This document shows, one piece after another, positions 546 through 6,110 of a stretch of DNA of 40,343 bases. A program made the translations under genes and the position numbers. The number at the start of each line of letters is the position of its first letter. Position 1 is the stretch's first letter. Origin of the DNA: Thermoanaerobaculia bacterium (lineage in GTDB: Bacteria; Acidobacteriota; Thermoanaerobaculia; Multivoradales; Multivoraceae); contig JAJDZH010000383.1 of the NCBI GenBank assembly GCA_022824725.1, positions 66,563-106,905 on the forward strand, given 5' to 3'. The notes under the pieces were generated by a model. The model had not been told where the DNA came from. It ran no database searches and saw only the letters and a program-made list of their open reading frames with translations.

Positions 546-573
546 GAGTCTGATAATGTCCATTATGTAAACT
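546..573 (+). other. dif: Candidate chromosome dimer resolution site (dif)
   Basis: A 28-bp site fits XerC/XerD recombination sites. It has an 11-bp left arm GAGTCTGATAA, a 6-bp centre TGTCCA and an 11-bp right arm TTATGTAAACT. The right (XerD) arm is identical to the XerD arm of Bacillus subtilis dif as I recall it, and 9 of 11 bases match E. coli dif. ATAATG and CATTAT (553-558, 561-566) form the perfect inner inverted repeat typical of dif. The site is AT-rich in very GC-rich DNA and lies in a non-coding gap (485-612). XerCD would convert dimer chromosomes to monomers here during division under FtsK control. The match is by eye; uniqueness in the genome cannot be tested from this window. 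Confidence 0.8.
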
Positions 574-612: not shown

Positions 613-3054
613 ATGGCGGCTGAAACCGCGATGTACCGACTCCTCGACCGCTACATCCTCCGTGAGACGACGGGACCGCTCCTTCTCGGGCTCCTGGTGT
701 TCACGTTCCTGGCCCTCATGCAGGAGCTCTTCCAGTACGCGGAGATGATCATCGGCCGCAACGTGGAGGCTGGGGCCGCCCTCCAGCTCCTGGCCTACAG
801 CCTGCCGCATATCGTCGTCCTGACGATCCCGATGGCCTTCCTGTTCGCGATCCTCATCGCGATCGGCCGCCTGGCGGCGGACAGCGAGCTGGTGGCGATG
901 AGGGCCTCGGGTATCAGCCTCTGGGCGATCTACCGGCCGATCCTGCTCATGAGCCTGGTCCTCGCGGCTCTGACCGGCTATCTGAGCACGGTCACGCTAC
1001 CCGCGGGCAACAAGGCGATCAGCGACCTCCGCCTGTCGATTCTGACCCGAAACGTCAGTCAGCAGGTCAAGCCGAAGGTCTTCTACGACCAGCTTCAGGA
1101 TCGGGTCCTCTACGTCTTCGAGACTCCCGAGAACGACGAAGGCTGGCGAGGGGTCTTCCTCGCCGACGCCGTGCCGGGCCCGGAACAGCAGGTGATCGTG
1201 GGCGAAACCGGCCGGATCAATCTGAACCAGTCGACCGGCCAGGCGGTCCTTCGGTTCGGCGTCGCCGACGTCCACGAGGTGGACACGAACAACCCGGGCG
1301 CCTACCAGCTCCAGCGACTCAGGGACGCGAACATCGCACTCGAGGACAGCCTTTTCCGGCAGGAAGAGCGACTGGTACTGGCGAAGGACGTCCGTTCCAT
1401 GACTCTCCCCGAGCTCTTCGACCGGACCGTGGAGCCCGGAAGAACCGCGTCGGAGCGGAACAGGGCGTTGGTCGAGATCCACAAGAAGTTCGCCATCCCG
1501 GCGGCCTGTCTGGTGTTCGGCCTCTACGGAATCCCGCTCGGTTTCCGGAACCGGCGGGGCGGCCGCTCTTCCGGTTTCCTCGTGTCGGTCGGCATCTTCC
1601 TCTTCTACTACGTCCTGCTGGGGAACGGAGAGGAGGCGGCAGCGAGCGGTCAACTTCCCTCCTGGCTGGCCATGTGGGCGCCGAACATCGTCCTGAGCGT
1701 CCTCGGCACCTTCCTGCTGTGGCGCCGCAACCGGGACAAGAGCCTGATGATCAGCGCTCTCGACCGATTTGCGCAGGATCATCTGTGGCGGCGCTTCGCT
1801 CGCCTTGGGCGCCGGCGGGAGATCCTGGGACGCAGGCGGCGCGCCCGGGAGCACCGGCTCGCGCGTGTGCGGCCGCAGTCGCTGGTGTCCTCCCCCACCC
1901 CGGCACGCGTGAAGGTCCGCGTGGAACCACCGACCTTCCGCTTCCCCGGAGTTCTGGACCGCTACATCTTCGGCGTGTTCGTTCGGGTGCTGGCCGTGAC
2001 GATCGTGGCCGCCCTTGCCGTCTTCATCGTCTCCGACTTCACCCAGCTCGTCGACGAGATGCTCCGGAACAATGTCCGTTCCGGTGTTTTCGTCGAGTAC
2101 TACCAGTACCTGTCCCTCCAGGTCTTCTACGACAACGCCCCCGTTCTCGTCCTGGTCACGACTCTCGTCACGTTCGGCCTGCTGTCCCAGCGCAACGAAG
2201 TCGTAGCCGCCAAGGCGCTTGGGTTCAGCCTGTTTCGACTGGCCGTGCCGGCCCTGTTCGCGGCGGTCGGCGTCGCCCTCCTGAGCGCCGCGCTGGAGAA
2301 CTCGGTGCTACCGGCCTCGAACGCGAAAGTCGTAGAAATGAGGGACCGGATACGGGGCGGTACCGGCCCCGTCAAGAGCTATCACCGGGCCGACCGTCAA
2401 TGGCGTTTCGCCCAGGAAGAGAACGGTGGCGGCTACATCTACAACTACCGGCACTACGACGCGGACCGGGCCACGTTGCGGCGCCTCCAGGTGTTCCGTT
2501 TCGACGCTCAACACAGGCTCACCCGGCGTCTCTACGCGGCCGCGGCCCGACACGTCCCTGGCGACGGCAAGGGCCGCTGGGAACTGGTGGATGCCTGGAT
2601 TCGGGAGTTCGACGGCCTGACAATCACCAATAGCCAGCGATTCGCCGGTCCCCAGCCGGTGGATCTCCCGGAGGAGCCGGAGTTCTTCAACACGGAGGTG
2701 AAGTACGCGGAGCAGATGAACCGGCTCGAACTCCGCCGCCATATCGACGAACTCGTGGCAGCGGGAACGGACGTGCCGGAGCTGGAGATGCAGCTCCACA
2801 ACAAGACCGCGATGCCTGTCGTCAGCCTGGTGATGGCCCTGGTCGCGCTGCCTTTTGCCTTCCGCCTCGGCCGCCAGGGCGCGCTGTACGGCATTGGCAT
2901 TTCCATCGTCGTGGGAATCGTGTACTACACGGTGATCAGCGTCTTCACCACCCTGGGTCAGTCCGAGGTCCTGCCGCCGCTGATCGCCGCCTGGAGTCCC
3001 AACGCCCTGTTCGCGACGCTGGCGCTCTACCTCTTTCTGGGCCTACGGACCTGA
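613..3054 (+). CDS. LptF-LptG fusion, LPS export ABC permease
   Basis: This is one 813-residue frame holding two YjgP/YjgQ (LptF/LptG) permease units. LptF and LptG normally form a heterodimer in the inner membrane that, with the LptB ATPase, extracts LPS and hands it to LptC/LptA. Unit 1 (about residues 7-375) begins LLDRYILRETTGPLLLGLLV and ends with membrane helices near LPSWLAMWAPNIVL. An Arg-rich cytoplasmic-looking linker follows (about 380-440, RRREILGRRRRAREHR). Unit 2 begins near residue 447 (VLDRYIFGVFVRVLAV) and ends with WSPNALFATLALYLFLGL. Both units show the family layout: paired N-terminal helices, a periplasmic beta-rich domain, then C-terminal helices. Either ATG 613 or ATG 631 could be the start; the latter fits the usual LptF N-terminus better, and neither has a clear ribosome site. 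The gene ends 2 bp from the stop of the convergent metK. Confidence 0.9.
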   Translation: MAAETAMYRLLDRYILRETTGPLLLGLLVFTFLALMQELFQYAEMIIGRNVEAGAALQLLAYSLPHIVVLTIPMAFLFAILIAIGRLAADSELVAMRASGISLWAIYRPILLMSLVLAALTGYLSTVTLPAGNKAISDLRLSILTRNVSQQVKPKVFYDQLQDRVLYVFETPENDEGWRGVFLADAVPGPEQQVIVGETGRINLNQSTGQAVLRFGVADVHEVDTNNPGAYQLQRLRDANIALEDSLFRQEERLVLAKDVRSMTLPELFDRTVEPGRTASERNRALVEIHKKFAIPAACLVFGLYGIPLGFRNRRGGRSSGFLVSVGIFLFYYVLLGNGEEAAASGQLPSWLAMWAPNIVLSVLGTFLLWRRNRDKSLMISALDRFAQDHLWRRFARLGRRREILGRRRRAREHRLARVRPQSLVSSPTPARVKVRVEPPTFRFPGVLDRYIFGVFVRVLAVTIVAALAVFIVSDFTQLVDEMLRNNVRSGVFVEYYQYLSLQVFYDNAPVLVLVTTLVTFGLLSQRNEVVAAKALGFSLFRLAVPALFAAVGVALLSAALENSVLPASNAKVVEMRDRIRGGTGPVKSYHRADRQWRFAQEENGGGYIYNYRHYDADRATLRRLQVFRFDAQHRLTRRLYAAAARHVPGDGKGRWELVDAWIREFDGLTITNSQRFAGPQPVDLPEEPEFFNTEVKYAEQMNRLELRRHIDELVAAGTDVPELEMQLHNKTAMPVVSLVMALVALPFAFRLGRQGALYGIGISIVVGIVYYTVISVFTTLGQSEVLPPLIAAWSPNALFATLALYLFLGLRT

Positions 3055-5180: not shown

Positions 5181-6110
5181 CTAGCCGGGACGTCTCGCTA
5201 GCAGCAGGCGGGTCAGCGCCGGCGCGACGTCATGGAGGTCGGCGACGATGCCGTAGTGGGCGACGCTGAAGATGGGGGCTTCGGGGTCCCTGTTGACGGC
5301 GACGATGACGCGGGAGCCACTCATGCCCATCAGATGCTGGATCGAGCCGGATACGCCGAGGGCGACGTAGAGGTTCGGGGCAACGATGTGGCCGCTCGAT
5401 CCGACCTGGTGCTCACGGGGCAGCCAGCCGTTGTCGACCACGGGCCGGCTCGCTCCGAGTTCGGCGTCCAGCGCCGAGGCCAGGTCGGCTGCGACGGAGA
5501 CCTCGTCCGGGCCGCCGACGCCGCGGCCGGCGGTAACGATCCGCTCGGCACCCGGCAGATCGACGCCGCCCGCGCCTGCCGCTTCACGGCCGAGAATCTC
5601 CCGTTCCCGGTGCCGTTCGACGTCGGCCGGCCGACCGACCTCGAACACCCGCTCCGGCAACTCCACCGGATCGTGGCCGCCGAACGCGCCGATCTGGACC
5701 GTGGCGACGACAAGTCGCCTCTTCGGTCGCACTTCGGCCCGCAGCCTGGCCTGGAGGATGGCCCGGCTGAAACTGAGGACGCCGCCAGCATCGAGCGTCG
5801 CCGAGCTGACCGAGGCGACGTAGGCGGCGCCAAGCCGTACCGCGAGTCGTGGCGCGTACTCCGCCGACTGGTAGGTGTGCGGGAGGAGAACCACCGTCGG
5901 CGCCGCCGGATCCCCGCCGCTCTCCCGAGTGATCAGAACACGAAGCGCCTCCGCGTAGAGCCCGGGCGAGTAGGGACCGAGACTCTCTTCGTCGAGAACG
6001 GCGACCCGGGAGTTGCCGCCGAGAGCCCGTCCGCAGGCACGAACTTCCTGCGTCCCCGGTCCACCGCCCGCGCCTTCGACCAGCCATACGACCGCTGCCG
6101 CCGAGTTCAG
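5181..6110 (-). CDS. etfA: Electron transfer flavoprotein alpha subunit, probable CTG start
   Basis: EtfA with EtfB carries electrons from acyl-CoA and related dehydrogenases to the quinone pool through ETF-quinone oxidoreductase. The C-terminal FAD domain is clear: [18 protein letters not shown], then [40 protein letters not shown] and [20 protein letters not shown]. The N-terminal domain starts [10 protein letters not shown]. No ATG, GTG or TTG is available between the etfB 3' end and that segment. The only near-cognate start is CTG at 6110, which overlaps the etfB stop as CTGA. A GGGAGG ribosome site lies exactly 7 nt before it, so I take CTG as the start (309 residues). The alternative is a start further upstream inside etfB or a sequence error. 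Translation is probably coupled to etfB. Confidence 0.9.

Follow-up and report, generated by a model that had tools for sequence, protein, structure and literature searches.

A chromosomal dif site and a linked second parB locus in Acidobacteriota

Results

The window, by which we mean the whole stretch of 40,343 nucleotides analysed here, opens within the 3′ part of a parB gene, which is followed by a short intergenic gap and a long open reading frame related to LptF and LptG. The features discussed below are these:

1–484, + strand: 3′ part of parB2, whose product is an orphan ParB in this genus (ParB_N and HTH_ParB domains); the gene is cut by the window edge and its full open reading frame is G000:C393:66132-67046
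546–573, + strand: chromosomal dif site, 28 bp (sequence, single copy, conservation, GC-skew switch)
546–556, + strand: putative XerC arm, GAGTCTGATAA (genus alignment; order consensus NNGTCYGATAA)
557–562, + strand: central region TGTCCA, 6 bp (GATNNA in most of the order)
563–573, + strand: putative XerD arm, TTATGTAAACT (genus, order and phylum comparison)
613–3054, + strand: fused LptF–LptG open reading frame, 813 amino acids (profile matches), conserved neighbour of dif on the side away from parB2
5621–5636, no strand assigned: tentative degenerate ParB2-type site, CGTCGGCCGGCCGACC, in an ETF gene, 5.07 kb from dif and with two mismatches to the outgroup motif

The gap between the stop codon at 484 and the next start at 613 holds the 28-mer GAGTCTGATAATGTCCATTATGTAAACT, which consists of an 11-bp left arm ending in GATAA, a 6-bp centre and an 11-bp right arm, and whose inner inverted repeat ATAATG/CATTAT is perfect. 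An earlier note on this DNA had described such a site, with its GATAA-ending left arm, XerD arm, perfect inverted repeat and position between genes, and our reading of the letters agrees with it throughout. By analogy with known dif sites, the left arm would be the XerC side and the right arm the XerD side.

The core pattern ATAATGTNNATTATGTNAANT matched once in the window at up to three mismatches and never in 100 dinucleotide shuffles; in the 3.72-Mb genome the 28-mer occurred once at the same tolerance, and its reversed control not at all. The assembly is a MAG in 490 contigs, and the single-copy result agrees with that from a complete relative. Exactly one core match was present in 20 of the 21 genomes of the genus, this one included. 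When 19 loci of the genus were aligned without gaps and centred on the site, its 28 columns averaged 1.81 of 2 bits, far more than the flanks (0.42 bits over 100 bp on the left, 0.77 bits over 90 bp on the right), and 9 of the 11 columns of the XerC arm were invariant or almost so. Both the single copy and the conservation are what the earlier note had expected of a dif site. Across the order TCYGATAARRTNNATTATGTNAANT was matched in 64 of 72 genomes, nearly always once. Most of the relatives named here are MAGs, under the labels Thermoanaerobaculia, Holophagales or Acidobacteria. Two genomes of the phylum, G107 and G188, carry 10 and 13 dif-like matches each (mostly TCCGATAACGGCCATTATGTCAATT in G107), possibly as Xer-mobilised modules or integrated elements.

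GC skew on the contig of the window is mostly above zero left of dif (about +0.02 over 67 kb) and −0.04 to −0.09 to the right of it (about −0.06 over 38 kb). In the complete chromosome OX638294.1 (4,634,923 bp; G060, the same genome as G019) dif lies at 398,912–398,932, and the best-fitting skew breakpoints over 80 sampled 20-kb blocks are 398,923 and 2,726,001. Skew changes from +0.044 to −0.063 between the 20-kb blocks flanking dif; since block edges were set at dif, the resolution of the switch there is 20 kb. The point opposite dif in this chromosome is 2,716,383, less than 10 kb from the skew origin at 2.726 Mb. Local skew in 31 outgroup loci runs in the same direction, weakly (22 of 31, P = 0.02). 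The proposal that the site fixes the replication terminus of this lineage is thus borne out by the skew switch at dif, both on its own contig and in the complete chromosome.

These results support positions 546–573 as the chromosome's real dif site. Elements that use Xer are known to leave dif-like sites behind, and the 28-mer might be the relic of such an attachment site (of an integrated element, for example) rather than a working dif; we regard this as exceedingly improbable, because the 28-mer is the sole copy, is conserved in genus and order and sits at the skew switch. No second site with better conservation was found at the terminus.

The genome encodes the proteins that the earlier note had advised looking for: XerD (354.9 bits against an NCBIfam equivalog cut-off of 329.6), XerC (345.7 bits against 335.15) and an FtsK_gamma domain (5e-25). 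XerC would bind the left arm of dif and XerD the right arm; FtsK at the septum would activate XerD, and the predicted XerCD recombination at the 28-mer, between two dif sites, would resolve a chromosome dimer into two monomers. The KOPS-like octamer GGGNAGGG is oriented towards dif in a ratio of 175:76, but G-rich control octamers are about equally biased. KOPS polarity is here inseparable from general strand bias.

The site shares with the XerCD/dif systems of E. coli and B. subtilis its 11-6-11 layout, its single copy, its place at the terminus and GC-skew switch, and the company of XerC, XerD and FtsK-gamma. It differs from most of the order in its centre, which in this genus is TGTCCA and not GATNNA, and it is inverted relative to parB2 against the phylum majority. 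A genome of another family, G038, has the centre TGACCA, similar to that of the genus. Dif sites in Acidobacteria were already predicted by Kono et al. 2011 (PMC3025954), in a study across phyla. Taken as dif alone, the site is ordinary, and by itself it is only a marker of the terminus for this lineage.

The gene whose stop codon lies 61 bp before dif, parB2, encodes a protein of 304 amino acids with ParB_N (1e-21) and HTH_ParB (2e-11) domains and no other Pfam matches. ParB2 keeps the QPR, GERR and ENLQR motifs, and the solved structures nearest to it are ParB and Spo0J. The genome's other ParB is encoded beside rsmG and parA together with a perfect parS, TGTTTCACGTGAAACA; in OX638294.1 this canonical rsmG-parA-parB locus is at 2.74 Mb, that is, at the skew origin. 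Near dif, neither canonical parS nor Noc sites were found on the 107-kb contig at up to three mismatches. ParB2 is like Noc in being an orphan ParB paralogue with, apparently, an altered specificity. However, it scores below the cut-off of the Noc model (116.8 against 315 bits), and ParB2-type sites are found near ter, a region poor in Noc sites.

Throughout the order parB2 lies close to dif: within 2.6 kb in 62 of the 64 dif-bearing genomes, at a median distance of 120 bp, and dif is downstream of parB2 in each of these 62. Of the two exceptions, one has the pair 22 kb apart and the other on different contigs. In the rest of the phylum, among the matches listed, 35 of the 36 same-contig pairs are at most 10 kb apart (30 of them at most 1 kb), dif again lies downstream of parB2 in 35 of 35, and seven further pairs are split between contigs; also among the matches listed, dif was missing from about 30 genomes that have ParB2, and ParB2 from 16 that have dif. 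The XerD arm points towards parB2 in 32 of 35 cases outside the order; inside the order the count is 31:31, and in the genus dif is in the flipped orientation, with lptFG still on its far side. Within the order the orientation of dif flips repeatedly while parB2 and lptFG stay put (L255–L294).

Gene neighbourhoods were compared in 41 loci picked for carrying both parB2 and dif, so that the linkage in this set is no evidence in itself. In genomes that have dif and no ParB2, dif can still adjoin lptFG or miaB/bfn, which means that the linkage may in part be old synteny, and several neighbours of dif are conserved. It could be argued from this that an ordinary dif sits in an old terminus synteny block (miaB-bfn-parAB2-dif-lptFG) in which ParAB2 is a passenger, the palindromes described below being only its autoregulatory operator and centromere. 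We consider such an account quite unlikely. At L255–L264 and L276 the other neighbours differ, lptFG and bfn not being found beside dif, and yet parB2 is within about 260 bp of it; all 97 pairs have dif downstream of parB2; and in the genus ParB2-type sites are spread round dif despite the loss of parA2.

In an all-against-all comparison, 38 of the 41 loci had a gene immediately before parB2, and this gene encodes a ParA (AAA_31, 3e-59). By tblastn, 39 of 40 outgroup loci have parA2; it is collinear with parB2 and stops close to where parB2 starts, so that the two form an operon there. The same search found no parA2 beside dif in any of the 15 genus genomes tested, the 107-kb contig of our genome included. 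An orphan ParB without ParA is therefore limited to this genus. Outgroup ParB2s have in common an N-terminal motif, GLP...M(R/K)HD.HFV, which is decayed, or the N-terminus shorter, in 20 of 20 ParB2s of the genus; the joint loss of ParA2 and this motif suggests that the motif contacts ParA2. At L005:5583-6124, outside the window, a BFN-domain gene stands immediately before parB2, where relatives carry parA2. That Bfn precedes parB2 in all relatives was considered and rejected, the gene directly upstream there being parA; by tblastn, 25 of 40 outgroup loci have Bfn close to dif.

Xer-mediated integration is expected to put a ParABS beside dif, and ParB2 is distinct in its specificity and its N-terminal motif. 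The parAB2-parS2 module could thus have entered at dif via Xer from a plasmid or secondary chromosome and now be a fixed relic, and an origin of this kind is compatible with a present function. We hold a relic to be unlikely, since the module occupies the same spot across much of the phylum with parA2 and parB2 together in 39 of 40 loci; this phylum-wide presence, with the gene pair kept, implies that an integration, if there was one, is ancient and was retained.

We scanned the surroundings of dif for inverted half-sites (all 6-bp halves, gaps of 0–8), and TGTCGG-N4-CCGACA ranked first: 32 of 41 loci have it close to dif, against 2 in flanks twice as long. The full palindrome, which we call parS2, is TGTCGGCNNGCCGACA, and the copy near dif is often the sole exact one in the genome. 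Its position varies by clade: it may precede parA2, lie within the last part of parB2 or follow that gene, and loci have up to seven copies. In 5 of the 40 outgroup loci (L255, L261, L266, L274 and L281) we found neither the exact site nor a clear symmetric variant. One genome has an exact parS2-type site (G053:C214:10388-10403) while ParB2 and dif were not detected in it, which may reflect an assembly gap.

At L262 and L264 the same place holds TGTCGACATGTCGACA, with both halves changed, and these two ParB2s are the only ones among those compared to have S for T in the TE of the recognition helix (Fisher test 0.0018, uncorrected for phylogeny). Two members of the genus of L262 have the usual palindrome together with T, so the change is not a marker of a single clade. 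This covariation is the best evidence that ParB2 would be the reader of the palindrome.

The assignment of the palindrome to ParB2 comes from sequence, and TGTCGGCGCGCCGACA might instead be bound by an operon regulator or an unknown nucleoid protein. This is, in our judgement, very unlikely: the palindrome has the length of parS and the same outer TGT...ACA, it changes together with the recognition helix of ParB2, and its clade-dependent position and clusters of up to seven are unlike a simple operator.

No exact palindrome was found near dif in the genus, our locus included, and our locus has no clear symmetric variant. Sites with at most one mismatch number 5–13 per genome of the genus, more than in most of the order, and those within 470 kb of dif amount to 10 of 10 in G005, 9 of 9 in G017, 7 of 7 in G014, 5 of 7 in G010 and 3 of 5 in G019. 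This clustering round dif is significant in G005, G014 and G017 and weaker in G010 (P = 0.008) and G019 (P = 0.06); because several offsets are shared among species, the genomes of the genus are not independent. The site at +145 kb is invariant in six species, with 52–53% of its flanks invariant; the flanks of the other three site families tested are too conserved to be very informative. The sites of the genus are one or two bases off the outgroup motif, and several have highly conserved coding flanks. The tentative site in the ETF gene is at the same position in 18 of 18 alignable genomes of the genus, mostly as TGTCGGCCGGCMGACM and in most with one or two mismatches; part of its conservation is protein constraint. 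Palindromes that stand at constant offsets in the genus, GATGATCATC and CTCGTCGACGAG among them, were rejected as sites. They lie inside the lptFG coding sequence and also elsewhere in the genome, and were therefore treated as coding conservation.

Discussion

Our reading, to which we give a probability of about 0.85, is that the 28 bp are dif and adjoin a second ParABS that is fixed at the terminus in much of Acidobacteriota (parS2, parA2-parB2 and dif, in that order), of which the genus has kept a part. It starts from what was observed, namely the linkage, the operon, the palindrome and the separate canonical ParABS at the origin; the protein activities, in the Xer and the ParAB2 part alike, are those that the sequences predict. 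ParB2, as a CTPase clamp of the ParB type, would load at TGTCGGCNNGCCGACA palindromes and, in its CTP clamp form, spread across the dif region. Late in the cell cycle ParA2 and ParB2 together would then move, hold or position this region and so allow the dif sites of the two sisters to meet at the septum. In the genus ParA2, the presumed motor, is gone together with the presumed ParA-facing N-terminus of ParB2, and related sites reach some 0.45 Mb to each side of dif.

The system proposed here resembles the chromosomal ParABS systems, which are known from origins, in the ParB_N and HTH_ParB domains, the CTPase motifs, the parA upstream in relatives and the 16-bp TGT...ACA palindrome. In contrast to them, it lies beside dif at the terminus and not at oriC, the canonical ParABS being present separately at the origin; the core of the palindrome is CGGCNNGCCG instead of TTCACGTGAA, ParB2 has another N-terminal motif, and parA2 is gone in the genus.

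The palindromes of the genus also invite comparison with MatP/matS of the enterobacterial Ter macrodomain, since they are short, dispersed and centred on dif over several hundred kilobases, and the two systems may work alike. The protein here, however, is a ParB (Pfam ParB_N and HTH_ParB only) and not MatP, and its sites are few and candidates. From these sequence features, ParB2 alone is probably a terminus organiser in the genus, MatP/matS-like and unrelated to MatP, which would mark or compact the terminus from several sites. On balance we favour the wider proposal that many Acidobacteriota have a terminus-dedicated parS2-parA2-parB2 locked to dif, and that one genus dropped ParA2 and made ParB2 with its scattered sites into a MatP-like Ter organiser.

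If this is correct, a phylum would have a ParABS, together with a centromere-like site of its own, anchored at dif, and would handle its terminus at division in a new manner. In phyla without MatP, such a system would be a candidate for what brings sister dif sites into line at the septum. In the genus, nature seems to have produced a ParABS that has lost its motor and kept its DNA clamp. The linked parB2 locus thus matters more than dif itself. An open-access literature search, covering its hits in part, returned no description of a ParB or ParABS at dif, and a second ParABS at the acidobacterial terminus is apparently undescribed. Orphan ParB proteins have been surveyed (PMC12704722, PNAS 2025), and ParB2 of the genus is like them in having no ParA partner; in a term search of the main text of that survey the words 'dif' and 'XerC' did not occur.

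The gene on the far side of dif has a feature of its own. Within its single open reading frame residues 10–371 match the LptF model and residues 447–809 the LptG model, which are normally two proteins, and tblastn gave a full-length match to the fused LptF–LptG in many genomes of the genus.
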